Below, piece by piece: positions 35,750-51,537 of a stretch of DNA of 64,000 bases (within the stretch, counting starts at the first letter, position 1; each line of letters opens with the position of its first letter). The stretch is from Enterobacter cancerogenus (GTDB lineage Bacteria > Pseudomonadota > Gammaproteobacteria > Enterobacterales > Enterobacteriaceae). The notes under the pieces are model-generated. The model worked only from the letters and a program-made list of their open reading frames with translations. It had not been told where the DNA came from and ran no database searches. The DNA lies in the NCBI RefSeq assembly GCF_019047785.1, contig NZ_CP077290.1:3844001-3908000 (forward strand), written 5' to 3'. Position numbers and translations under genes: made by a program.

Positions 35750-37081
35750 ATGACGACACATTCTGAGCGCCACCTTAATACCGGCGGCGATCCGCGCACG
35801 CTTGCGGATTATGCCGCCCTTCGCGATGAGATGAACAAGCTGACGCATCCGGCACGCCCGGATGTTAACTGGCAGCTTGCGGAAACGCTCTGCCTCTCGC
35901 TGTTTGAGCACAACGGGATTGAGCTGCAGACCACCGCCTGGTATACGCTTGCCCGTACTCAACTGGCCGGTTTGTATGGCATGAATGAAGGTCTGGCGAT
36001 CCTGGCTACGCTGGTTGCCCGGCAGTGGGGAGAAATCTGGCCGCAGCCGGTCCACGCGCGAATGGAGATCCTCAGCGCGCTGAGCAGGCGGCTACAGCAG
36101 GCGATGCGCACCCGGACGCTAACGTATGCGGATTTGAGCCAGCTCTACCAGGCGGAGGAACATCTGAATACCCTGGGTGAGGTGTTGCAGCGTCTGGAAT
36201 TGAAACACGCCAGCCAGCTTGATGCCCTGCGCATCCTGATGCATAACACGGCGGCGCGGCTGGAAAACAGCGACAACACCGGCGTGAGTGTGCCCCATGA
36301 CGCGGCGCTCACGCCTGAAAAAAGCCTCTCCAACCCGGAAGAGCAGGTGAAATGGGTATACGTGGTACAGCCCGATCCGCTGCCGAATGTGCAGGTGGCG
36401 ACCGAAAGTACACCCCCGGTTAAACCCTGGAAGCCGTTTGCGGCCGGTATGCTGACCATGCTGGTGGTGGCAGGTGCGGCCGCGTGGGGTTGGCAGGCAC
36501 TTCATCAGCCTGACCCGGCACAGACGCAGCTCGCCGCCACGCTGGCCCCGTTACCCGCCGCGCTATCCACCGAACAGCTACAGTCCCTGCGACACATGTC
36601 GCCATCCCCCGCGTCGGGTATCGACAAAACGCAGCAACAGCTGACGCAGCTGTTACGGCTGAAACCGGACTGGGCCGTCAGCTATGGCGATAGTCTGGTG
36701 CGTCAGGCCCTTACTCTGTGGCCCGAACAAGCGAAACCGCTGGCACAGCAGTGGCAGCAGCAGGTCGCTGCCGCCGCGCTTCCTGCACCGGAGCTGAACG
36801 GCTGGCATGAGGGGATGATCCAGCTCCAGCAGCTGGCGAACCGGCTCAACGCGCTGGATGAAAAGCGTGGCAAATACATGACGGTCAGCGAACTCAAGTC
36901 GGCAGTGTTTGCGATGACGCAGTCGTTTACCCGCGCCATACCGGCAGAAGAACAACTGCGCCAGCTTTCAGTCCTGCCGCACGATCGGCCCTGGCCAGCG
37001 GCACAGCAGAGCCAGACGGAGCAGCATCTGCAACAGCTTATTACCCGCTATGCGGTGCTCAAACAACAAACGGCACAATAA
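35750..37081 (+). CDS. TssA-like membrane-anchored T6SS protein (TagA/VasL type)
   Basis: 443-residue protein with an ImpA-type N-terminal domain (about 15-110, GGDPRTLADYAALRDEMNKL; TAWYTLARTQLAGLYGMNEGLAILATLVARQW). A linker, one membrane segment at about residues 226-245 (PFAAGMLTMLVVAGAAAWGW) and a C-terminal helical VasL-like domain (KYMTVSELKSAVFAMTQSF) follow. The layout matches the TagA class of TssA-like proteins, which stop the growing sheath at the opposite membrane and hold it extended. Together with cytoplasmic TssA at 29568, the locus therefore encodes both a primer and a stopper candidate. It follows tssE by 24 bases. The function is inferred from architecture. Confidence 0.85.
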   Translation: MTTHSERHLNTGGDPRTLADYAALRDEMNKLTHPARPDVNWQLAETLCLSLFEHNGIELQTTAWYTLARTQLAGLYGMNEGLAILATLVARQWGEIWPQPVHARMEILSALSRRLQQAMRTRTLTYADLSQLYQAEEHLNTLGEVLQRLELKHASQLDALRILMHNTAARLENSDNTGVSVPHDAALTPEKSLSNPEEQVKWVYVVQPDPLPNVQVATESTPPVKPWKPFAAGMLTMLVVAGAAAWGWQALHQPDPAQTQLAATLAPLPAALSTEQLQSLRHMSPSPASGIDKTQQQLTQLLRLKPDWAVSYGDSLVRQALTLWPEQAKPLAQQWQQQVAAAALPAPELNGWHEGMIQLQQLANRLNALDEKRGKYMTVSELKSAVFAMTQSFTRAIPAEEQLRQLSVLPHDRPWPAAQQSQTEQHLQQLITRYAVLKQQTAQ

Positions 37082-37749: not shown

Positions 37750-38925
37750 TCAGGCATCTGCCTGCCATTTTTCACGTTTTGCCCCAGCCCGGCGGGCCGT
37801 GGCGGGCAGTATATCGGCATCGGCGACATAACCATCCGGATCGAGACAGCGGTTATGATTTTTCGCCTGCTGCAGGATCTCCTCATCCCAGTACAGGCGT
37901 TTACGTTGATCGCCCTGGGTTGTCAAAATGCATTCCATATTCCCCTCTATCGCGCGGTAGCGCCGCCAGCTGTTTGCCGGAATGGAGATGACCGACCGTT
38001 CCGGTGCGATAATACTCACTTCCTTGCCCGCCTCATTCCAGGTGACCTCAAGCTTACCTTTAAAGACCATGATGACCTGCACGTCAGGACACACATGTCG
38101 GCCCGTGACGCAATTGTCCGCGAGCCGCAGCCACTCGACGGAAAAACCGTGCGGGCTGACAATCGCAGGGCAGGAATCCCGGTCCTGGGAAATGCCAAAG
38201 CCGATAACGGGCGCGATTTCGCCGCCGTGTCCCGGCAACACCGAGTCCAGCAGTCCCCGTGCCGACCAGCAACGGTCATCGCCTGTCACCGCGCGCTTGC
38301 GCATCTCCTCAACGCTGTAATCACGTAGCCCGGCAATATACGCCTCCGACAGCGGCGTCAGCAGCGTGGCGGGGTCAGGCTGCGGCTCGCCGGGTTCCTG
38401 CGTAATCAACATATTCTCTTTGCTTAAATACATACCGTACTCACTGGCGGCCGCGAGCACCGACGGATGCCAGATGATCCCGCCCGTGTTGTCGCCGCCC
38501 AGAACGGTGAACACCATGCCGCTGGTGTCCTCTTTACTGACGTTAGTAAACCCCCGGAAAATCCAGGTGGGGATGGAGAGGATCGCCGGGGCGCTGAATT
38601 CCGCTTCATGTTCACCCTGCGCGCCCCAGCGAAAACGCCATGTCCCTTCATGGATTAAGAACACTTCCGCCGTAAAATGCAGATGCAGGTTGTTGGTTAC
38701 CCCTTTCGGCATGGCCGCCGCGCCTATGTTAAAACCGTGCGGCTCGGGAATATTCACCACCTGCTCGGAGGACTGAGTGACGCCCGGGCCAATAAACGAA
38801 TAGTTTTGCTTCAGGTGCGAGCCGGGCAGCTTGCAGTCAATAAAAGCAAGGTTGCAGGAGACCATATCATCGGGGGTGATGAGTCGGCTTCTCGCCTGGC
38901 TCTGGGTAAGATGGATAGCGTTCAT
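37750..38925 (-). CDS. Bicupin protein of the catabolic cluster
   Basis: 391-residue protein with two cupin domains. The N-terminal one (about 60-170) includes GVTNNLHLHFTAEVFLIHEGTWRFRWG followed by LSIPTWIFRGFTNVS; the HLHFTAEVF stretch supplies metal-binding His/Glu residues. The C-terminal one (about 255-345) includes HVCPDVQVIMVFKGKLEVTW and RSVISIPANSWRRY, but its metal-ligand set looks reduced. Bicupins of this kind act as isomerases, dioxygenases or ligand-binding proteins, so the reaction cannot be named. The start at 38925 follows AAAGGAGAAACG. It is the last gene of the minus-strand arm, 11 bases after the aldolase gene, and is convergent with the T6SS end. Confidence 0.82.
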   Translation of the reverse strand: MNAIHLTQSQARSRLITPDDMVSCNLAFIDCKLPGSHLKQNYSFIGPGVTQSSEQVVNIPEPHGFNIGAAAMPKGVTNNLHLHFTAEVFLIHEGTWRFRWGAQGEHEAEFSAPAILSIPTWIFRGFTNVSKEDTSGMVFTVLGGDNTGGIIWHPSVLAAASEYGMYLSKENMLITQEPGEPQPDPATLLTPLSEAYIAGLRDYSVEEMRKRAVTGDDRCWSARGLLDSVLPGHGGEIAPVIGFGISQDRDSCPAIVSPHGFSVEWLRLADNCVTGRHVCPDVQVIMVFKGKLEVTWNEAGKEVSIIAPERSVISIPANSWRRYRAIEGNMECILTTQGDQRKRLYWDEEILQQAKNHNRCLDPDGYVADADILPATARRAGAKREKWQADA

Positions 38926-38936
38926 CGTTTCTCCTT

Positions 38937-39728
38937 TTAATAGCCGGATGTGCCGGTGGCAGGAATGGCGTTACCGCGCGCAAGGGCGATGGCTTCGCGC
39001 GAGGCGCGGCCCAGTTGCATGACGTCGTTTGCCGGGGTAACGAAATGAAACCCCTGGGCAATACGCGCTGCGGCAGCCGCGCCGGAGGTGCAGAAGATCC
39101 CGGCGATTTTTTGCTGCTGGCGACAGCGGTCGATCACCCGCTCAACGGCAGCAAGCATCTCCGGGTGTTGGGATTCGGCGCTGGCGTTGCCCGTCAGCGT
39201 CAGCGAGAGATCGTTAGGGCCTATAAACACGCCATCCAGCCCGTCGGTGTCGAGAATGGCGTCAAGATTTGCCAGCCCTTCGCGGGTTTCGATCATCGCC
39301 AGCGTCAGGATTTCATCGTTGGCGTGCTGCGGATAATCGCTGCCGCCGTAAAGCAGGCCCCGCGCCGGACCAAAGGAACGTACGCCCAGCGGCGGATAAC
39401 GGCAGGCGGCGACGAAGCGGCGGGCCTCCTCGGCGCTGGAGATCATCGGACAAATCACCCCGTAAGCCCCGGCATCCAGTACGCGCATGATTTGCGCCGG
39501 ATCGTTATCCGCCACCCGCACCAGCGGCACCGCAGGCGTGGCCGACAGCGCCTGCAGCATCGTCAGCGCGCTGGCAAAATCAATCATGCCGTGCTGGAGA
39601 TCGACGGTTACGGCATCAAAGCCCTGCTGCCCGACAATTTCCGCACTGTAGCCGGAGGGGATCGCCAGCCAGCCGTTGATGATGGGGGTATTGTCCTGAA
39701 AGGCGGTTTTTAGTGTGTTCTTGCGCAC
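38937..39728 (-). CDS. HpcH/HpaI-family aldolase
   Basis: 263-residue class II aldolase-type protein that would cleave a 2-keto-3-deoxy or hydroxy-keto acid to pyruvate and an aldehyde. Family marks are NGWLAIPSGYSAEIVGQQGFDAVTVDLQHGMID (with the catalytic-region DLQHG), PLVRVADNDPAQIMRVLDAGAYGVICPMI, GVRSFGPARGLLYGG and LDGVFIGPNDLSLTL. Metal-binding Glu (MIETREGLANLD) and Asp are present. GTG at 39728 is preferred because ACGGAG lies eight bases upstream; a GTG at 39749 lacks a ribosome site. It overlaps the hydrolase gene upstream by 19 bases. Confidence 0.9.
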   Translation of the reverse strand: MRKNTLKTAFQDNTPIINGWLAIPSGYSAEIVGQQGFDAVTVDLQHGMIDFASALTMLQALSATPAVPLVRVADNDPAQIMRVLDAGAYGVICPMISSAEEARRFVAACRYPPLGVRSFGPARGLLYGGSDYPQHANDEILTLAMIETREGLANLDAILDTDGLDGVFIGPNDLSLTLTGNASAESQHPEMLAAVERVIDRCRQQQKIAGIFCTSGAAAAARIAQGFHFVTPANDVMQLGRASREAIALARGNAIPATGTSGY

Positions 39729-40453
39729 GATATGCACTCCGTAATCCACTGGCGCAGCGGCGATGCGACCTCATCCGGGGTCTCGAGCGGAATAAAATGC
39801 CCGCCAGATGCCACCGTATGCCAGGTTGCGTTCGCGGCGCTTGCCGCCAGTAAGTGATGATGATGGGGCGTGCAGATCGGATCCTGCGCGCCGTTAAGGA
39901 TCACTACCGGGCAGGAGAGATGGCCCAGCGCCGCCCGGTTGTCCTGCCGGTGAATGGCGATTTCCGTTTGCTGAGCAAAGGTCGTTACACCGCACTCGCT
40001 TGCCATCTGACAGATAATGTCCTGTAAAGCCCGGTCGTTGAGGCGCGACGGGGCGACGTAACGTTGCCACAGCGCCGGGACCAGCCAGTCAACTATTCCC
40101 TGCGCCCGGGCGGTGCGCACCGCGTCCCGCCGTGGTGCGGCGTTTTCCGGCGGATCGGCAAGCGGGTTGGCAGATATCAGCGCCAGCCCGCTAAGCCTTT
40201 CCGGCGCGTCAGCGGCTATGTGCAGCGCGACGATTGCCCCCAGCGAAAACCCGGCCAGCAAAAAGCGCGGCGGCAGCGCGCTGAGCAGACGCTGCGATGC
40301 CTGCCGCGCCGATTCCGCCCCCGTCAACGTGACGCACAGCACCGCCGTCACGTTTAACCGCTCAATCACAGGCTGCCAGAGCCGGGCGTTGCACAGCGTG
40401 CCGCCAAGCAGCACCAGCGGCAGGTCGGTGTTATCCAGCAGAGCGTTTTCCAT
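39710..40453 (-). CDS. Alpha/beta-fold hydrolase
   Basis: 247-residue hydrolase with LVLLGGTLCNARLW (oxyanion-hole region), the nucleophile elbow FLLAGFSLGAIVAL (GFSLG, Ser near residue 92), LNGAQDPICTPHHH (acid) and VASGGHFIPLETPDEV (catalytic His). It resembles carboxylesterases and lactone or ester hydrolases rather than lipases. ATG at 40453 is chosen because GAGG lies nine bases upstream; a GTG at 40465 would overlap the SDR stop. Within the cluster it would hydrolyse an ester, thioester or lactone. The substrate is unknown. Confidence 0.87.
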   Translation of the reverse strand: MENALLDNTDLPLVLLGGTLCNARLWQPVIERLNVTAVLCVTLTGAESARQASQRLLSALPPRFLLAGFSLGAIVALHIAADAPERLSGLALISANPLADPPENAAPRRDAVRTARAQGIVDWLVPALWQRYVAPSRLNDRALQDIICQMASECGVTTFAQQTEIAIHRQDNRAALGHLSCPVVILNGAQDPICTPHHHHLLAASAANATWHTVASGGHFIPLETPDEVASPLRQWITECISCARTH

Positions 40454-40461
40454 TGCGTGCC

Positions 40462-41226
40462 TCACGTTGCCGTCCAGCCGCCGTCAACCATCAGGGCGCT
40501 GCCGGTGATCATCGCGGCGGCCTCGGAGGCGAGGAACACCACCGGCCCCATAATGTCTTCCAGTCGGCCTAACCGGCGCAGCTTGATGTTCTCCAGCACG
40601 TAGCGGCGAAATGCCGGATCTTCCAGCGCCGATCGCGACAGATCGGTTTCAATGAAAGTCGGGCACAGCGTATTGACCCGGATCCCGGCCTCGCCCAGCT
40701 CCAGCGCCATCGTGCGGGTTAACCCTTCAAGCGCAAACTTAGAGGCGCAGTAAACGCTCCGCTCGGGGCCGCCCACGTGCCCCATTTGCGATGAGATATG
40801 GATGATTGATCCGGCGCGACCACCCGCCCGCATACGCCGCGCCACGCGCTGGCTGACGAAAAAAGTGGCGCGGAGGTTAAGCGACATCACCGCATCGAAG
40901 TCGTCTTCGTTGACCTCAAGAAACGGCTGGTGGCGGGCCAGCCCGGCGCTGTTCACCAGAATGTCGATCTCCGGCAGGGTCGCCAGCACGCGGTCCACCT
41001 CCCGGGCGTCGGTGATATCCAGCGTTACCGTCTGAAGAGTGAGCCGATGCCCGGCGGCGAGATCGGCCGCCTGGTCCAGCGCCTCGCGGTTGCGGGCGGC
41101 AATCCACACCTCTGCGCCCGCCTGCGCGAGGGCGACGGCAGCGGCGAAGCCAATCCCTCGCGAGCCACCTGTCACCAGCGCGCGTTTGCCGTGCAGAGCG
41201 AAAGAGGGCGTTTGTACAAGCGTCAT
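40462..41226 (-). CDS. Short-chain dehydrogenase/reductase (SDR)
   Basis: 254-residue classical SDR. It has the nucleotide-binding TGGSRGIG motif at residues 19-26, VNSAG near 91, the catalytic Ser in IIHISSQMGH and YCASK with Tyr and Lys near 158-162. VMVDGG closes the domain. Arg in AARNRE after the second strand suggests preference for NADP, though this is only indicative. It sits three bases after the HisD-like gene and a few bases before the hydrolase gene, so it belongs to one transcript. Its likely role is oxidation or reduction of a hydroxyl on the cluster substrate. Confidence 0.92.
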   Translation of the reverse strand: MTLVQTPSFALHGKRALVTGGSRGIGFAAAVALAQAGAEVWIAARNREALDQAADLAAGHRLTLQTVTLDITDAREVDRVLATLPEIDILVNSAGLARHQPFLEVNEDDFDAVMSLNLRATFFVSQRVARRMRAGGRAGSIIHISSQMGHVGGPERSVYCASKFALEGLTRTMALELGEAGIRVNTLCPTFIETDLSRSALEDPAFRRYVLENIKLRRLGRLEDIMGPVVFLASEAAAMITGSALMVDGGWTAT

Positions 41227-41229
41227 GGA

Positions 41230-42552
41230 TTACACCTTTTCCCTGACCGGGGCCGGCATCGCGTAGGGCACGTCTGTCTGGCCATAGCGACGCACGCGAA
41301 TATTGGCCTGCTCGGCGTGTCCGGCAAATCCTTCAAGCAGCGACAGGCGGGAGCAATAGCTGCCGATTTCGGCCGTGGCTTCGTCGCTGAGGACCTTCTG
41401 GAAGGTGCAGGTTTTCATGAACTTGCCGACCCACAGCCCGCCGGTATAGCGCGCGGCTTTTTGCGTTGGCAGCGTGTGGTTGGTGCCGATCACCTTATCG
41501 CCGTAGGCGACGTTAGTGCGCGGGCCGAGGAACAGTGCGCCGTAGTTGGTCAGCCTGGCGAGGAACCAGTCGTCCCGGTCGGTCATCACCTGAACATGCT
41601 CGGAGGCGATGCGATCGGCCTCGGCCAGCATCTCTTCGTAGCTGTCACAGACGATGATTTCGCCATAATCCTGCCACGACTGGCGGGCGATATCGGCAGT
41701 GGGAAGTTTTTCCAGCAGCCGCTCCACTTCCTGCTGCGTCTCTTTAGCAAGCGTCAGGGAGTTGGTCAGCAGAATGGCAGGGGTGGTGACGCCGTGTTCG
41801 GCCTGCCCGAGCAGGTCCGTGGCGCATATTTCTGCGTCTACGGTGTCATCGGCGATGACCAGCGTTTCCGTCGGTCCGGCAAACAGATCGATACCCACCC
41901 GGCCAAAGAGCTGGCGCTTGGCCTCCGCAACAAAGGCGTTGCCGGGGCCGACCAGCATATCTACCGGTGCCAGCGAGTCGGTGCCCAATGCCATTGCGCC
42001 AATCGCCTGAATGCCGCCCAGGGCATAGATTTCCGTTGCGCCCGCCATCTTTTGTGCCGCGACAATCGCCGGAGCGGGTTCGCCGTTAAACGGCGGGGCA
42101 CAGCTGATGATCCGCGAGCAGCCCGCCACGCTGGCGGTAATGATGGACATATGGGCAGAGGCCAGCAGTGGATATTTCCCGCCGGGGACATAACACCCCA
42201 CGGCATTGATCGGAATATTTTTATGGCCGAGGATCACGCCGGGGCGCGTTTCAATTTCGAGATCCCGCAGGCACTCTTTCTGCGCGCGGGCAAAATTCGC
42301 CACCTGCTGTTGGGCAAATTCAATATCCTGAATATCCTGGCGGCTTAACTGTTTTATACAGCGGTCGATCTCCGCTGGCGTCAGGCGATAATCCTGACGG
42401 TCATAGCGATCGAATTTAATCGATAATTCACGAATGGCTTTATTTCCCCGCTTCTCAATATCCGCCAGGATATGTTCAACTTTTTCTCTGACCTGCTGAT
42501 TCGCCTGCTGGCGCTCTTCGGTACTTTTACCGCTTTTTAATTTCCAGGACAC
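41230..42552 (-). CDS. HisD-family dehydrogenase, copy 1 (sulfopropanediol/histidinol dehydrogenase-like)
   Basis: 440-residue zinc- and NAD-dependent dehydrogenase of the histidinol dehydrogenase family, which performs two-step alcohol-to-acid oxidations. The zinc and catalytic positions of the family are conserved: [13 protein letters not shown] (Glu-His pair), [14 protein letters not shown] (Asp) and EGFAGHAEQ (His). The stretch [18 protein letters not shown] is closer to sulfopropanediol 3-dehydrogenase (HpsN) than to true HisD, and there are no other his genes here. It is therefore a catabolic paralogue, not histidine biosynthesis; sulfonate specificity is not established. The start is GTG at 42552 after GGAG. 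A second paralogue lies at 47553. Confidence 0.88.
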
Positions 42553-42627
42553 ACGCTTCTCCTTACCTTTTTAAGATGTCAGTTGCCCTCCCGGCGAACC
42601 GGGATAAATGAATTACTGCAGAATGTG

Positions 42628-43866
42628 TTATTGATCCGGCGCGGCGGCGTAAGCCCCGTTTTTTAATAAGCGGGACGCGTGTTGCGCCTTACGGGCATAA
42701 ACCCAGCGTGCGGACAGCGGCGTGGCAATCGCAGCGACGACCGAGAGCGCGGCAATTAACAGGTAACCGGACGAGATATTAATATGTTGCATCATCACGC
42801 CCATCATCACCGGCCCGACAAACATGCCGCAGGAATAGATCGTCTGGAATAATCCCATGCGGGTGGATTGTTCATCGGCGGTGGTATTCACCACGCTGAG
42901 CGACATAAATGCCGCAAACGCCATGCCGAAGGAAAAACCTGCCAGCGCCTGGAGCGAATAAATGACATATAAATTGCTGGTAAAAGGAATGCCAAGCGTC
43001 GAGATCACCTGTAACACGATGCCGAGCACGGCGGTTTTTACCAGCCCAAGGCGCTGATAAAACACCGAGCTGCACAGGGCGATGGCCAGCCCGTAAAAAA
43101 GAAGATGGATATTACCGAGCAGGGCGAGGATCCCTGCCCGGGCGCCCAGTTGTTCGGCGTAGACCGGCGTCAGGGTGTCGCGAGTGGCAAAGGGAACCAG
43201 AATCACGATGGTCGCCAGGATGCCAATCAACCAGACGGAACGGTCGGCCAGCTGCTGTCGCGCCCCGGTGATGCAGGCTTTCAGCGTGGGAGCCTGCACC
43301 GGATCATGAACGTCCTGAATGCGGGTCGTCAGGATCAGCGCCACCAGGGCCGAGATGCAGGAGACGAAAAAGGCGATGTTGTTGGCGAAGTAGTGGATCA
43401 GCACGGCGCCAATACAGTTGCCGAGGAACACGCCGATCGGCCCGGCCAGCGCCAGCAGCGCCACGGCCGCCGGGGCTTCGTTACGGTCGAAATAGCGAAT
43501 GAACAAGATGTTATACAGCACCCACGTGGCCGCCGTGACGCCGTCAGCCGCTTTAGCCATATATAACGTGACGGCGTTAGGCTCGAACCAGGCGATCGGC
43601 CAGGCGATAATGGGCAGCAGTAAACCGATTTGAATAAAAATCCTGCGGCTCTTTACCACGTCGGAGATGATCCCCAACGGGAAACGGATAAGCAGCGTAG
43701 CCAGCCCGGACGCCCCCATAATGATGCCCATTATCTGTGGCTCGAAGCCCTGGTTGATCATCATTGGTGCCAGGAAGGCATCGATGCTGTGAATACAGAT
43801 AAAGAACAGGACGCTGATGATGAAAAAGAGCCGGGCTTCCCGACGGCGTAACAGTGCTCGAAACAT
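42628..43866 (-). CDS. MFS transporter of the catabolic cluster
   Basis: 412-residue major facilitator with about 12 membrane segments. The loop between the second and third helices reads IRFPLGIISDVVKSRR, the family pattern with Arg/Asp/Lys/Arg charges. It begins after AGAGG with ATG at 43866. It is the first gene of the minus-strand arm and faces the LacI-type regulator gene across a 343-base control region with two operators. It is probably a proton-coupled importer of the cluster's substrate; direction and substrate are inference. A 75-base gap separates it from the HisD-like gene. Confidence 0.9.
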   Translation of the reverse strand: MFRALLRRREARLFFIISVLFFICIHSIDAFLAPMMINQGFEPQIMGIIMGASGLATLLIRFPLGIISDVVKSRRIFIQIGLLLPIIAWPIAWFEPNAVTLYMAKAADGVTAATWVLYNILFIRYFDRNEAPAAVALLALAGPIGVFLGNCIGAVLIHYFANNIAFFVSCISALVALILTTRIQDVHDPVQAPTLKACITGARQQLADRSVWLIGILATIVILVPFATRDTLTPVYAEQLGARAGILALLGNIHLLFYGLAIALCSSVFYQRLGLVKTAVLGIVLQVISTLGIPFTSNLYVIYSLQALAGFSFGMAFAAFMSLSVVNTTADEQSTRMGLFQTIYSCGMFVGPVMMGVMMQHINISSGYLLIAALSVVAAIATPLSARWVYARKAQHASRLLKNGAYAAAPDQ

Positions 43867-43980
43867 GGTTTTGAACCTCTTAAAAGTAATGGGTTACAAC
43901 CAGCCAAGTACGACGTTTACCGGTTCAATCCTTTGGGCGACTCCTGTTCTCTCCGGTACCTTTGACGGTATGAAAACTCT

Positions 43981-43996
43981 TTGCATACGTATTCAA
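43981..43996. promoter_or_regulatory. LacI-type operator 1
   Basis: TTGCATACGTATTCAA is a near-perfect 16-bp palindrome centred on CG, the usual form of operators for LacI/GalR regulators. It lies about 115 bases upstream of the MFS start. Confidence 0.7.
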
Positions 43997-44070
43997 GATT
44001 TGAAGTTACGAAAAGGTTTCATGTTTGTAAAGTGATCTCGATCTTGTTGTGAGAATTTTATTTTTTTGTG

Positions 44071-44086
44071 TTGCATACGCATGCAA
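44071..44086. promoter_or_regulatory. LacI-type operator 2
   Basis: TTGCATACGCATGCAA differs from operator 1 at only two positions and is also palindromic around CG. It lies about 124 bases upstream of the regulator gene, and its start is 90 bp from that of operator 1. Confidence 0.7.
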
Positions 44087-44209
44087 AGGTGGTGTAAGTA
44101 TAAAAAACACCCACCTGCTGAAGCGTCCGGAACAGGTGAAAAAAGGGGCTTTTTCGCGGTCCGTGAACAGAATGAACGTGGGTAAGTCGTTGATAAGGAA
44201 AACGGGGTA

Positions 44210-45280
44210 ATGAAACGTAAGACTTTTGCAGCAGTCACATCTCAACAGGTCGCGCAGCTGGCGGGGGTATCGCAATCCGCGGTGTCGCGAACGTTCACGC
44301 CCGGGGCCAGCATTTCACCGGCAACACGTGAAAAAGTGCTGAAAGCGGCGCGTGAGCTTGGTTATCGTCCAAACGCGATAGCCCGGTCGCTCAACACGGC
44401 CCGCTCGCGCATTATTGGGGTGGTGATCTCTTACTTCGATAACCCCTTTTACTCGCAGGTGCTGGAGGCGCTGGCACAAAAGCTGGATACGCTGAACTAT
44501 CACCTGCTGCTGTTTGTCGGCGACCGGGAAGGCAATGTCGACCGCATTTTCGACCAGATTATGCAGTACCGCGTGGACGGTATCGTGCTGGCATCGGTCA
44601 CGCTATCGCTGGAGTTATCCGAGGAGTGCCTCGCCGCCGGGATCCCGGTGGTGTTGTTTAACCGCAGCGAAGAGAGTGGGATGGCCTCCAGCGTCAACAG
44701 CAATAACGAGGCGGCGTCACGGCAGATAGCCGAGTTTCTGTTGGCGGGGGAGCACAAGCGTTTCGCCTACGTTGGCGGCGTGCCTGACTCCCCGGTCAAT
44801 ATCGCCCGTCAGCGCGGGTTTATCTCCACCCTGCAAGAGCACGGCATCACCGATGTGCAGGTGGTGAATGGCAATTACGACGTTCAGCACACCACGCAGG
44901 CAGCCTATGCTCTGTTTTCGGCACCGCCTGTGCCGGATGCGGTCTTTGTCGCCAACGATCATATGGCCGTGACGGTGATGGATGTGGCACGCTATGCGTT
45001 TGGTTTGCGCATTCCCGAGGAGGTGTCCGTTGTCGGGTACGACGACATCGGTCCCTCAGGCTGGCCCTCCTATGCCTTAACCTCTGCATCACAGCCGGTG
45101 GGCGAAATGGTGGACGCCACGGTCGAGTTATTAATGAAGCAAATTGAAAGCGAAACCATAGAGCCTGAGCAGATTACGGTGCCCGGTACGCTGGTTATTC
45201 GCCACTCAGCCCGCCGCCCGCGCAGTGGCGTTATCGAAAAAGATGGCTTATCGCTATTCCAGACTAAGGAGCTCAAATGA
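44210..45280 (+). CDS. LacI-family transcriptional regulator of the catabolic cluster
   Basis: 356-residue repressor. The N-terminal helix-turn-helix (about 10-30: TSQQVAQLAGVSQSAVSRTFTP) and hinge region (GYRPNAIARSLNTARS) are typical. The periplasmic-binding-protein-like core runs IIGVVISYFDNPFYSQVLEAL to VSVVGYDDIGPSGWPSYALTS. Effectors of the family are usually sugars, sugar acids or similar polyols, which hints at the type of substrate. A GGGG ribosome site precedes the ATG. It overlaps the following double-NTF2 gene by four bases (ATGA), so regulator and enzyme-like genes share a transcript and probably autoregulation. Confidence 0.93.
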   Translation: MKRKTFAAVTSQQVAQLAGVSQSAVSRTFTPGASISPATREKVLKAARELGYRPNAIARSLNTARSRIIGVVISYFDNPFYSQVLEALAQKLDTLNYHLLLFVGDREGNVDRIFDQIMQYRVDGIVLASVTLSLELSEECLAAGIPVVLFNRSEESGMASSVNSNNEAASRQIAEFLLAGEHKRFAYVGGVPDSPVNIARQRGFISTLQEHGITDVQVVNGNYDVQHTTQAAYALFSAPPVPDAVFVANDHMAVTVMDVARYAFGLRIPEEVSVVGYDDIGPSGWPSYALTSASQPVGEMVDATVELLMKQIESETIEPEQITVPGTLVIRHSARRPRSGVIEKDGLSLFQTKELK

Positions 45281-46248
45281 CCAGATTGCGGGGCTTCAGC
45301 CCACAGTTCGACTCCATCCAGCAGTTTATTTTGACGCTGACACACGTGGTATGGGAGCAGAAAGACATAGGCCAGCTGGCGGATTTTTACGCCACGCCAG
45401 TGGTATTTACCACCCCGGAAAAACAGCTGCATGAGCTGTCACAGTTTATGCGCCTCACCCTTGAGGCGATGCACAGTTTTCCGCAGCGCACCGTGCTGAC
45501 CGAGGACATCCTCTGTAGCCAGAATCCGGGTGACGAGTACTATGCCGCTCAGCGCACCGTCGCGCGGATCCAGCATCAGGGGGAGGGCTTTTTTGGTCCG
45601 CCAACCGGCAAAAATGTCTGGGTACGTACGTGGGCCGATCGCATTTGCGTCGACGGAGCCGTGCGTCAGGAGTGGCTGCTGCAGGATCGCGCCGCTATCG
45701 TGTCGCAACTGGGGCTGGATATCCGCGAGTTTGCTTTTAACCTGGCGACCATGCGTCAGCAGCTTGGGCTGGAGTCTGTTTCCGCCGAGACGCTGGATGC
45801 GCGCTGGGCGGGAGGCCCAGAAGGCGATGATGTGGAAGGTGTACTTGCAGGCGTGGTGGAGCGCTACCTGACGATGTGGGCGGGCGGCAACAGCGGCGTG
45901 GTACCCGGTTTATACCACCCGGCGGCAACGCTCTATGCGCCCGGCCATTGCACCTGTACCGGTGAACAGGAGATCGGCGCACAGCTTTCCGGCTACCGCG
46001 CCTCGTTTGCCGACAGCGAAACGCAACTGCACCACCTGGTTGTGCGTAAAGATCCCAACGAGCCGGTTCGCATTTCATTGCGCTGGTCGCTGCTGACCTG
46101 GCATGACGGATACGGCAAGTTTGGCGCGCCGACGCGTAAACCTGTTTCAGTCACCGGTATTACCCAGCTTGAATTACGCGATGGGTTAATTTTCCGTGAA
46201 TATTTAGGTATTGATGAATTAGCGATTTGGTCGCAAATATTTAATTAA
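45277..46248 (+). CDS. Double NTF2/SnoaL-like protein, copy 1
   Basis: 323-residue protein made of two consecutive NTF2/SnoaL-like halves. The first (about 15-150) includes WEQKDIGQLADFYATPVVFTTPEKQLHE and ends QEWLLQDRAAIVSQLGLD. The second (about 190-320) includes YLTMWAGGNSGVVPGLYHPAATLYAPGH and ends FREYLGIDELAIWSQIFN. This fold is used by polyketide cyclases, dehydratases, isomerases and hydroxylases, so the activity cannot be read from sequence. It overlaps the regulator gene by four bases. It is related to the 380-residue protein at 46410, but a truncated ERIC repeat lies between the two genes. Confidence 0.8.
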   Translation: MTRLRGFSPQFDSIQQFILTLTHVVWEQKDIGQLADFYATPVVFTTPEKQLHELSQFMRLTLEAMHSFPQRTVLTEDILCSQNPGDEYYAAQRTVARIQHQGEGFFGPPTGKNVWVRTWADRICVDGAVRQEWLLQDRAAIVSQLGLDIREFAFNLATMRQQLGLESVSAETLDARWAGGPEGDDVEGVLAGVVERYLTMWAGGNSGVVPGLYHPAATLYAPGHCTCTGEQEIGAQLSGYRASFADSETQLHHLVVRKDPNEPVRISLRWSLLTWHDGYGKFGAPTRKPVSVTGITQLELRDGLIFREYLGIDELAIWSQIFN

Positions 46249-46324
46249 CGGGGCGGCAGCCTCCTTATTTCCGCTGCCAATACTCATCATTTTTAATTCA
46301 CCCTCACTTACGGGTGCGGGTTCT

Positions 46325-46382
46325 TATACCCTAAATAATTCGCGTAGCCAACGCATCTGCAACGCGAAGTATTACGGGTATA
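46325..46382 (+). repeat. Internally deleted ERIC element (58 bp)
   Basis: The sequence begins TATACCCTAAATAATTCG and ends GAAGTATTACGGGTATA, matching the two ends of an ERIC element, with CCAACGCATCTGCA from its inner part. About 70 bp of the normal element, including both classic primer regions, are missing. It lies between the two double-NTF2 genes, close upstream of the second. Confidence 0.8.
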
Positions 46383-46409
46383 TTTTCTGAAAATAGAGCA
46401 GGAGTTTAT

Positions 46410-47552
46410 ATGTCTTCCACTGAAGCAACAAATAAAGCACCAGCCGTACCCGAAAAAAGCAGCGTGAAAGCGCTTAAAGAAGAGTCCGTATTACAGGTCG
46501 AGCGCCGTGATTTTGTCGATCTGGTGCCGGAGAATCGCCCGCGTGCGCAGTCATTAAGAGGCTTTGACGACTGCTATACCGATATCGTCGATTATATTGT
46601 TCGCTGCACCCATAAAATATGGGATGAGCGAGACGTGGGCTTAATTTATTCCCACTATACCCATAACTGCGTGCTTTATAACGCGCTGGGGACGTTATAT
46701 AACCGCGAACAGGTGGTGCAGGATACATTGCAGCGCCTGGTTGCTTTCCCGGAACGCCGCGGCATGGCAACCCAGGTTATCTGGAACGGAAATGATGTCG
46801 ACGGTTTTTATACCTCGCATCTGGTCACGGGAAGCGGGCGCCATACCCAGTACAGCCATTTAGGCAAACCGACCAACCGCACATTTGTTACCCGGACCGT
46901 GGCGGATTGCATGATCCACGAGAACAAAATTTATCGCGAGTGGGTGGTCAGCGACAACATGTCGTTAATGAAACAGCTTGGCCTTAACACCGATGAAGTC
47001 GCCTTTAATATGGCCAAAGAGCAGTTTGATAAAGGCTTCCGCGTGATGGATATCGGCGAAAACGGCCGCATGCTGGGGCAATATCCGCCGGAGATCGCGT
47101 GCGATGTTTCTCTTGCGCACAGCGATACGGAAGAGCAGTGCCTGCGTTGGCTGCATGAGATCTACAACCGCCGGATGTTCGGCAAAATCAAAGAGGTGTA
47201 TGCCCCGAACGTGCAGTGGCACGGCCCGTTGATGAAAGAGCTGTACGGAACGGCGGCAGTGACCCACCAGACGCTGGCGCTGGTGGGTATGATCCCTGAC
47301 GGCGCGTGGCTGCCGCAGCATATCTGCTCCACCCCTTGCGACGAGGGCGGCGTGAAGGTGGCGGTTCGCTGGATTATCGAAGGGCATCACCTGGGTTACG
47401 GCGAGCTGGGTAAACCGACCGGAGAACGGCTGTTCGTGATGGGGATGTCGCACTACCACATCCTCAACGGGAAAATTGTTGATGAGTGGGTGGTTTACGA
47501 TCACCTGGCGCTGCTGGCGCAAATCAAACTTGGCCAGATGGAGGATGCGTAA
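46410..47552 (+). CDS. Double NTF2/SnoaL-like protein, copy 2
   Basis: 380-residue protein with an about 55-residue charged N-terminal extension and two NTF2/SnoaL-like halves. The first includes CTHKIWDERDVGLIYSHYTHNCVLYNALG and IYREWVVSDNMSLMKQLGL; the second includes WLHEIYNRRMFGKIKEVYAPNVQWHGP and KIVDEWVVYDHLALLAQIKLG. Both halves share the [RD]EW-x-[VL]-x-D ending with the first copy, indicating common ancestry. The start follows AGCAGGAG. It is immediately followed by the second HisD-like gene with no intergenic base, so the two proteins probably act in sequence or as a complex. Confidence 0.82.
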   Translation: MSSTEATNKAPAVPEKSSVKALKEESVLQVERRDFVDLVPENRPRAQSLRGFDDCYTDIVDYIVRCTHKIWDERDVGLIYSHYTHNCVLYNALGTLYNREQVVQDTLQRLVAFPERRGMATQVIWNGNDVDGFYTSHLVTGSGRHTQYSHLGKPTNRTFVTRTVADCMIHENKIYREWVVSDNMSLMKQLGLNTDEVAFNMAKEQFDKGFRVMDIGENGRMLGQYPPEIACDVSLAHSDTEEQCLRWLHEIYNRRMFGKIKEVYAPNVQWHGPLMKELYGTAAVTHQTLALVGMIPDGAWLPQHICSTPCDEGGVKVAVRWIIEGHHLGYGELGKPTGERLFVMGMSHYHILNGKIVDEWVVYDHLALLAQIKLGQMEDA

Positions 47553-48848
47553 ATGTTGAATGACGTAATCTGGATCAAGCATCCGCAGGGGCAGGATGCA
47601 CAGGCCGATCGTTCGCTGACGGAGACGGTCAGCGGCATTATTGCGCGGGTAAAAGATGAAGGTGACGCGGCGCTAAGGGCCTATTCACAGCAGTTCGATA
47701 AGGTTGTGCCAGCCCAGTTCGAAGTGAGCGAGCAGGAGATTGCCGAAGCACTTGCCGGTATGGACGCCCAGACCCGTCGCGACAGTGAATTTGCCATCAG
47801 TCAGGTGCGCCGTTTTGCCCAGGCGCAGCTGGCGACCATGCAGCCGCTGGAGGTCGAGACCCTGCCGGGCGTGCACCTGGGGCACCGGATCATCCCGGTG
47901 CAGACGGTGGGCTGCTACGTCCCCGGAGGACGCTATCCGATCCTCTCCGCGCCGGTGATGTCGATTGTTCCGGCGACGGTGGCGGGCTGCGAACAGATCA
48001 TTGCCTGTCTGCCGCCGGGCGCGCATCCGGCGATGATCGCGGTGTGCCATCTGGCGGGCGCGCATCGCATCTTCAAAGTTGGCGGCGCGCAGGCGATTGC
48101 GGCCATGGCCTGGGGAACGGACAGCATACCGTCGGTGGATAAAATCGTGGGGCCAGGCAACGCCTTTGTTAACGAGGCGAAACGTCAGGTGTTTGGCAAA
48201 GTCGGCATTGATGCCCTCGCCGGGCCGAGCGAGATTTTCACCATAGCGGACGACAGCGCCGACCCGCGTATTCTGGCCGCTGATATGCTGGCCCAGGCAG
48301 AGCATGACGTACATACCCGCGTCGGGCTGGCGACGACCAGCCGGGAGATTGCCGAGCGTACGCTGGCTGAGGTTGAGCGCCAGTTGGCCAGCCTGCCCAC
48401 GGCGGCAACGGCAGGCGAGGCGTGGCGTCGACAGGGCGAGATTGTACTTTGCGAAGACGAAGCGCAACTTATCGCTTTTGCTGACCATATGGCGACGGAA
48501 CATCTGCAGGTGCATACCCGCGATCCGCACGCCACGGCGGCGAAGATCCGCAACTACGGCTCGCTGTTTATTGGGCAGAACGCCAGCGTGGTGTTCTCCG
48601 ATAAATGCTGCGGGACCAACCACACGTTGCCAACCATGGCGGCGGCGCGCTATACCGGCGGCTTGTGGGTGGGGGCGTATGTCAAAATCTGCACCCATCA
48701 GTGGATTGATGAGCAGGGCATCCCGGCAATTGCGGAACCGGCGATCCGCCAGAGCCGTACTGAAGGGATGCAGGGGCATCGACGGGCGGCGGAGATCCGA
48801 TTGCGTGCGCAGGACATCGATGCGATCACCTCAGGCATGCGGGACTAA
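47553..48848 (+). CDS. HisD-family dehydrogenase, copy 2
   Basis: 431-residue paralogue of the enzyme at 41230. The zinc and catalytic residues are kept: [34 protein letters not shown] and EGMQGHRRAAEIR. The [20 protein letters not shown] region again marks it as a catabolic HisD relative. The two copies diverge strongly outside the active-site segments, so they are probably not redundant and may oxidise different intermediates or stereoisomers. The ATG directly follows the stop codon of the double-NTF2 gene. A hairpin with T-run follows the gene, before the amidase. Confidence 0.88.
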   Translation: MLNDVIWIKHPQGQDAQADRSLTETVSGIIARVKDEGDAALRAYSQQFDKVVPAQFEVSEQEIAEALAGMDAQTRRDSEFAISQVRRFAQAQLATMQPLEVETLPGVHLGHRIIPVQTVGCYVPGGRYPILSAPVMSIVPATVAGCEQIIACLPPGAHPAMIAVCHLAGAHRIFKVGGAQAIAAMAWGTDSIPSVDKIVGPGNAFVNEAKRQVFGKVGIDALAGPSEIFTIADDSADPRILAADMLAQAEHDVHTRVGLATTSREIAERTLAEVERQLASLPTAATAGEAWRRQGEIVLCEDEAQLIAFADHMATEHLQVHTRDPHATAAKIRNYGSLFIGQNASVVFSDKCCGTNHTLPTMAAARYTGGLWVGAYVKICTHQWIDEQGIPAIAEPAIRQSRTEGMQGHRRAAEIRLRAQDIDAITSGMRD

Positions 48849-48860
48849 ATCAAAGACAGC

Positions 48861-48886
48861 GCCGGGCGACATGCGCCCGGCTTTTA
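48861..48886 (+). terminator. Hairpin terminator or attenuator before the amidase gene
   Basis: GCCGGGCG and CGCCCGGC form an eight-base stem with a five-base loop, followed by TTTT. It lies 12 bases after the HisD-like gene and about 20 bases before the amidase start, so it could lower amidase expression rather than end the operon. Confidence 0.65.
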
Positions 48887-48904
48887 GCACAGGAATTCTC
48901 ACGC

Positions 48905-50230
48905 ATGACCATGATGCGCCTGATACCACCGGAGGATTGCCCGGATGAAATCGCCCGTCGGCTTAACGCGATAAAACAGCAGCCTGGGCTAAACGCCATC
49001 CTCGGCGTTAACCCCGACGCCATGCTACTGGCGAAACGGTGCCAGCAGCAGCGTCAACGCGGAGAGCATATCGGGCCTTTGCACGGGGTGCCGTTGATTA
49101 TCAAGGATAATATTGCCTGCGCGCCGCTGCCCATTACCCTTGGCTGCCGGGCGCTGGCCTCGCTCAGGGCGTCCTCAGACGCGCGGGTGATACAGCGTTT
49201 GCGCCGGGCCGGCGCCATTATTCTCGCCAGGGCCAATATGTCCGAGTTTGCATTTGACGTGCGGTCCCGAAGCTCGCTGGGCGGTGATGTGGCAAACCCG
49301 CTTCTCCCGTCGGTGACCGCCGGCGGTTCCAGCGGAGGATGCGCCGCCGCGGTGGCCGCTGGCATGGCCGATGGTGCGCTGGGAACTGACACCGGCGGCT
49401 CTATTCGTATTCCCTGTAGCTATACCGGGCTGGTAGGGCTGCGCCCAGCCTATCGCCGCGCGCAGCTGGACGGTGTGGCGCCGCTCTCTCCCAGTAAAGA
49501 TACCGTTGGGCCCATGGTTCACAGCGTGGAAGATGCGGCCATGTTGCACGCCATCATCCACGGTCTGCCGCCGATTCCGCTGCCGCCACGTTCGCTGAAA
49601 GGTGTGCGCTTCGGCGTGATAACCGCGTTGCAGGGAAGCGATGACGTGCAGCTGGCGGTCTGGAACCTGGCGCTGCATGCGTTGAGTCGGGCAGGGGCGA
49701 CGCTGGTTGAGATAGCATTACCTTTTATGGATGAAGTCAGACAGGCGACCTGCCTGAGCCTGTCTGAATTTCGCGTGGCGATCGATCACTGGCTGACAAA
49801 ACAGCCTGATGCACCTGCCGGGCTGAAGCACATTATCGACTCCGGCGCATTTTTGCCTGAGTTCGCCCCCTTTCTCAGGCAGATGCTGACGTATAACACG
49901 CTCAAAACCCCGCTCTGGCTGGCGGGGCGGCGTTTTCAGCGCCAGCTGCGCCAGAACCTGTGCCATGTAGCGGAGGAGCTGCGGCTGGATGGATTTGTGT
50001 ATCCCACGGTACAGCGGTTGCCGGACAGCATGGCGAAAATGCCGCCCGGCTGCGCGCCTGAGTTGTCCGCGATAAGCGGTCTGCCTGCAATAACCTTGCC
50101 CTGTGGCGTGAGCCGCAGTGGGCTGCCAGTAGGCATGGAGATTTTATCGGTGCAGGCGGAGGAGACGGGGTTGTTGGCGCTGGCGCGGGGTTGTGAGGAG
50201 GTGTTGGGTGGGAAGTGGTGGAAGGGTTAG
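48905..50230 (+). CDS. Amidase-signature family hydrolase
   Basis: 441-residue amidase-signature enzyme with the full Ser-cisSer-Lys triad. Lys lies in GVPLIIKDNIA (near residue 66), the central Ser in TAGGSSGGCAAAVAAG (near 143) and the nucleophile Ser in GALGTDTGGSIRIPCSYTGLVGLRP (near 166). It hydrolyses a carboxamide, urea-type or similar bond; the substrate is not evident. It is the last gene of the plus-strand arm. The position suggests the cluster's growth substrate or an intermediate contains an amide. The start at 48905 follows CAGGAATTC; ATG at 48911 or 48914 is possible. Confidence 0.9.
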   Translation: MTMMRLIPPEDCPDEIARRLNAIKQQPGLNAILGVNPDAMLLAKRCQQQRQRGEHIGPLHGVPLIIKDNIACAPLPITLGCRALASLRASSDARVIQRLRRAGAIILARANMSEFAFDVRSRSSLGGDVANPLLPSVTAGGSSGGCAAAVAAGMADGALGTDTGGSIRIPCSYTGLVGLRPAYRRAQLDGVAPLSPSKDTVGPMVHSVEDAAMLHAIIHGLPPIPLPPRSLKGVRFGVITALQGSDDVQLAVWNLALHALSRAGATLVEIALPFMDEVRQATCLSLSEFRVAIDHWLTKQPDAPAGLKHIIDSGAFLPEFAPFLRQMLTYNTLKTPLWLAGRRFQRQLRQNLCHVAEELRLDGFVYPTVQRLPDSMAKMPPGCAPELSAISGLPAITLPCGVSRSGLPVGMEILSVQAEETGLLALARGCEEVLGGKWWKG

Positions 50231-51391: not shown

Positions 51392-51537
51392 ACGTGTAGT
51401 GACGCCTTAAGGGTATGAACAACATATAACTACAGTCAGATTAACTGCGTTTTACATGGCAATACCGTCGCCAGTGAAGATGAATTTTCATCTCATTTAT
51501 GGAGAGCGACTATTTAAATTATGGAGCAATTATCAAT

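Follow-up and report, generated by a model that had tools for sequence, protein, structure and literature searches.

Eleven genes at positions 37750-50230 of a 64,000-nucleotide stretch of the Enterobacter cancerogenus genome (4.82 Mb; the stretch, G000:C1:3844001-3908000, is called the window below) form, in our view probably, one inducible two-module catabolic regulon directed at a class of small, polar, nitrogen-bearing compounds that contain a hydroxymethyl group. Six of the genes lie on the minus strand (left arm) and five on the plus strand (right arm). Both arms look co-regulated: perfect copies of an operator-like site occur in the divergent promoter between them and nowhere else in the genome, and related gene sets in Alphaproteobacteria, Deinococcus and Priestia come with this site or one close to it. 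LacI-controlled catabolic clusters are a known kind; as far as we have seen, this composition and a regulon of this sort extending across phyla are undescribed. No account of the gene set was found in the open-licence full-text literature, which misses most subscription journals, and this agrees with an earlier sequence-only reading of the same DNA that knew of no described pathway with these genes. The operator sequence retrieved unrelated papers only from open-licence literature.

The sequence-only reading had counted twelve genes around one LacI regulator. Its coordinates, strands and family assignments stand; the count is corrected to eleven. New beyond that reading are the operator, the spread across phyla, the fusion between the arms and the occurrence of either arm alone. 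The parts are listed below.

37750..38925, minus strand: bicupin, 391 amino acids (aa); PF07883, 27.8 bits against a cut-off of 27.2
38937..39749, minus strand: HpcH/HpaI class II pyruvate aldolase, 270 aa, GTG start; PF03328
39710..40465, minus strand: alpha/beta hydrolase, 251 aa, PcaD/BioH-like, with a G-F-S-L-G nucleophile elbow
40462..41226, minus strand: SDR dehydrogenase, 254 aa, with YxxxK
41230..42552, minus strand: HisD1, HisD-superfamily alcohol dehydrogenase, 440 aa, grouping with HpsN
42628..43866, minus strand: MFS transporter by family match, presumed importer, 412 aa
43981..43996: presumed LacI operator 1, TTGCATACGTATTCAA, 115 bases before the MFS start codon
44071..44086: presumed LacI operator 2, TTGCATACGCATGCAA, 124 bases before the lacI start codon
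44210..45280, plus strand: LacI-family regulator, 356 aa, recognition helix VSQSAVSR
45277..46248, plus strand: NTF2a, tandem SnoaL/NTF2 protein, 323 aa, two SnoaL (PF07366) stretches
46410..47552, plus strand: NTF2b, tandem SnoaL/NTF2 protein, 380 aa, two PF07366 stretches
47553..48848, plus strand: HisD2, HisD-superfamily alcohol dehydrogenase, 431 aa, TIGR00069 match
48905..50230, plus strand: amidase-signature amidase, 441 aa, GGSSGG motif

Within each arm, neighbouring genes overlap or are separated by 75 bases at most, the exception being the 161-base gap between NTF2a and NTF2b. The aldolase and hydrolase genes share 40 bases, and the true aldolase start may therefore be slightly downstream.

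Operator-like sites in front of both arms

The two putative operators are spaced 90 bases apart in the divergent MFS-LacI promoter and are the sole perfect matches of the 4.82-Mb genome to the pattern TTGCATACGNATKCAA. When two mismatches were allowed, the genome scan returned 16 strand hits for TTGCATACGNATKCAA and 6 for its reversed control. The same pattern was sought in 84 loci holding related genes (L004-L087, 1.59 Mb in total). These contain 142 sites with one mismatch at most, 141 of them outside called genes, and most of the sites adjoin the start of an MFS, LacI, HisD, cupin, NTF2b or hydrolase gene. Strand hits in the loci numbered 254 for the pattern as against 0 for the reversed pattern, and palindrome hits 145 as against 0-2 for each of 20 shuffled palindromes; these controls test composition, not the choice of a pattern that was itself drawn from such sites.

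The identical 16 bases of TTGCATACGCATGCAA were present in all 31 Enterobacterales MFS-LacI gaps examined. In other loci, where HisD2 diverges from NTF2b or the hydrolase, 24 of 25 gaps contain the site, and the remaining one, in L079, shows it at one mismatch to the pattern. Many Devosia clusters show three sites, located before HisD1-SDR-LacI, before cupin-RraA and between HisD2 and a fused hydrolase-NTF2b gene. The site reaches other phyla as well: TTGAATACGTATTCAA is present twice in Priestia filamentosa, and Deinococcus has ATGCATACGTATGCAA-like sites with one or two mismatches. Of 12 LacI rows compared, 11 have the recognition helix VSQSAVSR; in Priestia it is VSQSTVSR. At two mismatches, no operator site was found in the HisD-SDR-aldolase-LacI set of Alloyangia (L109).

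LacI presumably binds the putative operators. The sequence-only reading had envisaged one catabolic cluster under one LacI regulator and had named separate regulation of the arms as what would overturn this idea; as judged from the operator scans, an operator-like site precedes each arm and it is the same site before both, which suggests a common switch.

Conservation of the set and exchange of its parts

Related loci were collected by an NTF2b alignment scan with one genome per species. The scan gave 315 stretches encoding a relative, the best 80 of which were kept and divided into 31 enterobacterial loci and 49 others, mostly labelled Alphaproteobacteria; NTF2b is thus present in all by construction. 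The enterobacterial group includes one locus titled Chryseobacterium (L030) whose gene order is that of Citrobacter (L031). Genes were called by codon-usage scoring. Loci of at least 20 kb make up 25 of the 31 and 34 of the 49, so that absences partly reflect contig ends. A fixed score cut-off was applied to HpaI, of which L082 has a more distant form, and NTF2a counts are given for the 31 enterobacterial loci, since its query also matches NTF2b.

Gene-neighbourhood analysis, a check proposed by the sequence-only reading, finds the set recurring in both groups and also in Bacillota and Deinococcota. In the 31 enterobacterial loci LacI, NTF2a and HisD2 are found in all, MFS and the operator site in 30 each, HpaI in 28, the hydrolase and SDR in 27 each, the cupin in 26, HisD1 in 25, the amidase in 16 and RraA in none. 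The 49 others contain the site (40), HisD2 (37), HisD1 and LacI (36 each), SDR and hydrolase (34 each), cupin (32), RraA, amidase and an ABC ATPase (27 each), a MetE-like gene (12) and HpaI (1); MFS was found in none. NTF2b is highly conserved, that of the window being 64-73% identical to its relatives in these 49 loci (best segments). A megaplasmid of Pantoea dispersa carries all eleven genes in identical order.

In 23 of the 49 non-enterobacterial loci the left-arm alpha/beta hydrolase is fused to the right-arm NTF2b. Such a fusion joins proteins of the two arms and is therefore direct evidence that the arms work together.

More distant sets retain the same kinds of enzyme. A plasmid of Priestia filamentosa (Bacillota) encodes, in one direction, LacI, SDR, a single-domain cupin, alpha/beta hydrolase, HpaI, NTF2, HisD, two MFS proteins and amidase; these are 28-48% identical to the window proteins, and the single HisD is nearer HisD2. 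Deinococcus plasmids carry SDR, LacI, HisD1, HpaI, hydrolase and cupin, followed by a sugar-type ABC transporter and at least two NTF2 proteins; in Deinococcus QL22 a second HisD is followed by a carbon-nitrogen hydrolase in the amidase's stead.

The aldolase, too, is exchanged: it is of the HpaI type in enterobacteria and of the RraA type in many relatives. The MFS protein is replaced in relatives by an ABC transporter of the sugar/polyol class. The use of two aldolase types, two transporter types and, in one Deinococcus, another amide hydrolase points to fixed reaction types, namely uptake, amide hydrolysis and a pyruvate-releasing cleavage. Amide hydrolysis and aldol cleavage to pyruvate, both anticipated by the sequence-only reading, are thus probable steps, as the aldolase and (in one Deinococcus) the amidase have been exchanged for unrelated enzymes of the same reaction. 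For the MetE-like and solute-binding proteins of the relatives, the PDB yielded distant matches only.

The aldolase belongs to the HpcH/HpaI superfamily (PF03328, 124.3 bits against a cut-off of 25) and its top PDB relatives carry the names HpcH/HpaI or hydroxyketoacid aldolase; it matches four named families, in each case below the equivalog cut-off, among them HpaI, the 4-hydroxy-2-oxoheptanedioate aldolase (TIGR02311, 191 bits against 368.8). The RraA protein of L057 falls within its superfamily (PF03737, 62 against 24.5) and scores far below the equivalog model (TIGR02798, 25.1 against 304.5) of 4-carboxy-4-hydroxy-2-oxoadipate (CHA) aldolase (LigK/PcmE). Similarly, the hydrolase reaches 70.9 bits against 255.85 for the 3-oxoadipate enol-lactonase PcaD (TIGR02427), and the amidase 316 against 532 for indoleacetamide hydrolase (NF005688). 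The aldolases invite comparison with aromatic catabolism, where RraA/LigK-type CHA aldolase and HpaI steps belong to the same pyruvate-releasing superfamilies that are interchangeable here; unlike in those pathways, the RraA and HpaI proteins of the cluster lie far under the named-enzyme cut-offs, and the cupin is the sole possible dioxygenase among the eleven proteins.

Points against a single regulon

Several observations weigh against the eleven genes forming one unit. The amidase was not found in 15 of the 31 enterobacterial loci (14 of the 25 of at least 20 kb), and a called HisD2 is missing from 12, a called HisD1 from 13, of the 49 others, some of these at contig ends. At one mismatch, 11 of the 84 loci have no site (L006, L016, L037, L045, L048, L050, L061, L063, L064, L081 and L087). 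The site also precedes HisD1-LacI sets without NTF2 genes (Roseomonas L005; Geobacillus L125) and hence marks a LacI subfamily, not the full set alone; in several Devosia loci it stands between the amidase and HisD1, which possibly places the amidase outside LacI control. A scan of the window at three mismatches gave 4 hits, all at the two known sites, where 3.58 were expected, so that looser operator scans are uninformative, and no sigma-70-like promoter was found by a simple scan of the divergent region. Plasmids of Phaeobacter piscinae (L113) and Vibrio pelagius (L115) carry NTF2 relatives (34.6% and 25.8% identity) with a sugar-type ABC transporter and no listed HisD, and the second HisD of Deinococcus QL22 is 52% identical to HisD1 and 49% to HisD2. 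Moreover, the cupin of the window has an Arg at the position where the usual cupin motif has its fourth metal ligand.

Finally, each arm also occurs by itself, and this makes the arms linked rather than inseparable and limits the claim of one pathway. The left arm alone, with its own LacI, is present on a conjugative IncFIB plasmid of Klebsiella michiganensis K5-3 (L124, 5764-12987), with identities of 42% for LacI, 73% for HisD1, 71% for SDR, 45% for MFS, 52% for the hydrolase, 75% for HpaI and 69% for the cupin. Its operator-like sites have two mismatches, and no NTF2, second HisD or amidase gene was found in the stretch read. The right arm alone is represented by L030 and L031, with MFS, LacI, NTF2a, NTF2b and HisD2; at the place of the left arm these loci have genes that, as we read their sequences, encode a peptide (ABC) transporter and a dipeptidase-like protein. 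The left arm may be a self-sufficient lower pathway and the right arm an add-on that widens its substrate range.

Solitary arms would fit two unrelated pathways that had become neighbours by chance. This explanation has to contend with the same site before both arms, the fusion of a left-arm to a right-arm protein and the joint occurrence of the arms in three phyla, and we regard it as very improbable.

Some related sets are recorded here in their own right. The NTF2 relatives of L113 and L115 are tandem proteins, and the set in Vibrio pelagius adjoins sarcosine oxidase genes. L125 is an 11.4-kb plasmid of Geobacillus subterraneus with LacI and a HisD1-like gene (63%), two operator-like sites in front of them and just two further listed genes.

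The two HisD-type dehydrogenases

HisD1 and HisD2 are 45.6% identical to each other, and a third PF00815 gene lies elsewhere in the genome, which bears out their description as divergent HisD paralogues. Both surpass the TIGR00069 cut-off of 243.8 bits (443.4 and 452.3, respectively); since solved HpsN chains are HisD relatives too, this score leaves their activity unsettled. HisD1 groups with HpsN in a tree of 37 rows, made with a short search and having long branches and support from the SH-like approximate likelihood-ratio test (SH-aLRT) only. The HisD1 and HisD2 clades each mix enterobacterial and alphaproteobacterial rows, indicating that the two have long belonged to the cluster.

Residues were compared in 122 rows of 400-470 aa from L004-L087 (59 HisD1 and 63 HisD2; the whole HisD cluster has n=129). 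For the Cupriavidus pinatubonensis enzyme (CpHpsN), zinc ligands and a catalytic Glu-His pair are defined in PMC11382572. In its numbering, Q248, H251, E318, H319, D352, H359 and H411 are kept in 59/59 HisD1 and 63/63 HisD2 sequences. The same source describes a G-R-Y-A/S-H motif in HpsN, the His of which (His126) binds the sulfonate. This His occurs in neither paralogue: all 59 HisD1 rows have G-K-Y/F-P-L/M, with Leu or Met at position 126, and all 63 HisD2 rows G-R-Y/F-P-L/I, with Leu or Ile. Position 353, a sulfonate-contacting Lys in HpsN, is Lys in 122/122 rows and Tyr in the third PF00815 protein of the genome.

That third gene is taken as the biosynthetic hisD; it alone has the HisD-type G-S-A-P-L motif, where the window copies read GKYPL and GRYPI. 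HisD1 and HisD2 thus share with histidinol dehydrogenase the zinc ligands, the Glu-His pair and the family score, and differ from it in these motifs and in having Lys for Tyr at 353. That either is a second histidine-biosynthesis gene is unlikely, given the lack of GSAPL and the third gene elsewhere.

The residues predict that HisD1 and HisD2 should be four-electron alcohol dehydrogenases whose substrate is not 2,3-dihydroxypropane-1-sulfonate (DHPS) and probably not histidinol; it may perhaps carry an anionic group. The hps cluster of C. pinatubonensis (hpsRNOUPsuyAB; DHPS degradation) offers a close likeness: HisD1 shares 46.8% identity with CpHpsN and has all of its catalytic residues. That cluster combines a HisD-superfamily dehydrogenase with the 2-oxidoreductases HpsO and HpsP, an MFS importer and its own regulator (PMC11382572). 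In contrast to it, the present cluster has neither His126 nor SuyAB, and it contains in addition another HisD, two tandem NTF2 proteins, a cupin, an alpha/beta hydrolase, an aldolase and an amidase. The sequence-only reading had linked the pair to sulfopropanediol-type enzymes and had seen no sulfonate lyase; HisD1 is indeed nearest to sulfopropanediol dehydrogenase, yet is not one, and none of the eleven proteins is a sulfonate lyase. The grouping of HisD1 with HpsN and the Lys353 of both HisDs would suit a DHPS-like sulfonate pathway; with the recognition His replaced in every row and the lyase absent, we reject it on residues and consider the chance of its being right close to nil.

The genomic contexts of other HisD relatives pointed to no substrate. 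On plasmids of Rhizobium, Sinorhizobium, Paraburkholderia and Microvirga (L120-L123), HisD2 relatives (58-68%) lie near a cupin gene, in three of the four with aminotransferase genes nearby, and possibly represent another HisD-type pathway. From these contexts HisD2-type enzymes might have to do with nitrogen compounds, though the hint is weak.

Cupin and NTF2 proteins

The N-terminal cupin domain, common to all versions aligned, keeps H81-x-H83-x3-E87 and R124, these four residues being invariant in 8 aligned rows; the C-terminal domain is absent from the Priestia and Deinococcus versions. No match was obtained in a PDB search with the single cupin sequence. The match of a profile falls mostly on the second, dispensable domain, and no mechanism can therefore be read from it; as far as the sequence goes, either a dioxygenase or an isomerase is conceivable.

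Each NTF2 protein consists of two PF07366 stretches, as the term double-NTF2 in the sequence-only reading implied, although the second stretch of NTF2a scored 25.6, just under the cut-off of 28.4, in one of two scans. Their distant PDB relatives are ester/polyketide cyclases. They share PF07366, here twice per protein, with the SnoaL-type polyketide cyclases ("ester cyclase") and differ from these in being tandem, in their catabolic setting and in having relatives fused to an alpha/beta hydrolase. A structure model of NTF2b has a mean predicted local distance difference test score (pLDDT) of 65.9; residues 1-121 are mostly below 50 and the model is confident in the C-terminal two thirds only.

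Possible course of the pathway and nature of the substrate

If the cluster is a single regulon, LacI would occupy one operator before each arm and repress both until an inducer binds, and the MFS protein would take up the compound. HisD1 would convert a CH2OH group beside a carbinol carbon into a carboxylate in two NAD steps, as in HpsN and HisD, while the SDR would oxidize or invert the neighbouring secondary alcohol. The cupin could open or rearrange the scaffold, the alpha/beta hydrolase cleave an ester or lactone and the aldolase release pyruvate. NTF2a, NTF2b, HisD2 and the amidase would strip or process side groups so that the core enters the lower pathway. We infer the order of the reactions, the roles of the NTF2 proteins, SDR and cupin, and the substrate.

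A specific and falsifiable guess at the substrate is that the regulon degrades mycosporines, the ultraviolet-screening cyclohexenones of fungi, algae and cyanobacteria, to central metabolites. We give it a small chance. In these compounds C5 bears a hydroxyl group. According to PMC7828830 and PMC3083659, the ring carries an amino compound and, in the former source, a hydroxymethyl at C-5, a methoxyl at C-2 and CH2 at C-4 and C-6. PMC3083659 further states that hydrolysis of mycosporine-glycine yields a beta-diketone and glycine, that Vibrio harveyi was suggested to hydrolyse shinorine and porphyra-334, and that mycosporine-glutaminol is reported from fungi and terrestrial cyanobacteria.

With a mycosporine as substrate, HisD1 would turn the C5-CH2OH into a carboxylate and the cupin would cleave the enaminone C=C, so that one side would end as an amide and the other as an alpha-keto methyl ester. 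The amino compound would then be released by the amidase and methanol by the alpha/beta hydrolase; the remainder would be, atom for atom, 4-carboxy-4-hydroxy-2-oxoadipate, which the RraA or HpaI aldolase would split into pyruvate and oxaloacetate. HisD2 might handle amino-alcohol side chains such as glutaminol, and the NTF2 proteins might act on the enaminone or imine. Among the family names matched, 4-carboxy-4-hydroxy-2-oxoadipate is the substrate of an RraA-superfamily aldolase; its acceptance by HpaI-type enzymes is assumed. The scheme is weakened by the L057 RraA score far under the CHA aldolase model and by the want of a definite task for the NTF2 proteins and the SDR, and no mycosporine-specific neighbour gene was seen.

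The main alternative to mycosporines is a sugar-acid or 3-deoxy-polyol route without ring cleavage, itself unlikely, if with an appreciable chance of being correct. The sequence-only reading had likewise surmised a polyol or sugar-acid type of substrate. HisD and SDR would turn R-CHOH-CH2-CHOH-CH2OH into a 2-oxo-3-deoxy acid, the hydrolase would open a lactone, the NTF2 proteins dehydrate, and the aldolase yield pyruvate and an aldehyde. The LacI type of the regulator fits this route, as does, without proving it, the sugar/polyol class of the relatives' ABC transporter. The best matches of the SDR, all under cut-off, include the glucose, gluconate and deoxygluconate dehydrogenase families; the aldolase has matches, under cut-off, to GarL and keto-deoxy-rhamnonate aldolase as well, and the Sphingomonas aldolase is nearest GarL. 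However, the amidase and cupin would have no clear task, and we know of no NTF2-fold sugar-acid dehydratase.

Lastly, the two HisDs, the amidase and the cupin could serve an N-heterocycle with hydroxymethyl groups, similar to pyridoxine: the HisDs would oxidize the ring CH2OH groups, the cupin cleave the ring, and the hydrolase and amidase finish. To our knowledge, the known vitamin B6 routes employ other enzyme families, and the sugar-type transporter of the relatives also speaks against such a substrate. The zinc site of true HisD takes an imidazole (PMC11382572), which would be in favour of this reading; we hold it to be quite improbable.

Distribution and flanks

Among the kept loci, the nearest NTF2b relatives are those of Enterobacter wuhouensis (97%), E. 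hormaechei (96%) and E. cloacae (95%). Of 392 genomes sampled in the family, 18 gave an NTF2b match; within the genus, 20 of 60 did. No near-identical copy was found by megablast in 20,395 E. coli records; the plasmid megablast matched 19 records, with a large part (41%) covered in Pantoea alone. In G414, NTF2b lies about 9 kb from a match to the type VI secretion stretch of the window, whereas in G397, G415 and G428 the distance is about 1 Mb or more; these secretion matches are mostly 66-77% identical and possibly other copies. A MarR-GNAT gene of the right flank occurs in 2 of the 60 genus genomes, the source genome and G439, the latter without an NTF2b match. The distribution of the cluster is patchy, and the cluster has probably moved.

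In 2 of the 20 genus genomes with NTF2b (G428 and G442) the gene has one in-frame TGA, suggesting decay in some strains. A contig labelled Solirubrobacterales (Actinomycetota; L063) has a 67% NTF2b relative with cupin and ABC genes, and represents either a fourth phylum or assembly contamination.

Two genes in the flanks of the cluster are as follows.

35750-37081, plus strand: type VI secretion gene, VasL/ImpA-type
51499-55380, plus strand: very large surface protein with an inverse autotransporter beta-domain and weak Ig-like matches

The C-terminal region of the latter is a right-handed beta-helix, unusual for an intimin/invasin-type protein.

Biological significance

Enterobacterales, Alphaproteobacteria, Deinococcus and Bacillota have all retained the set along with its switch, in several cases on plasmids, and this implies that its substrate is a common environmental compound. 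The cluster provides new reaction contexts for three poorly known groups of proteins, the HisD-type dehydrogenases not acting on sulfonates, the tandem NTF2 proteins and the cupin, and its operator is a ready reporter with which the inducer may be found.

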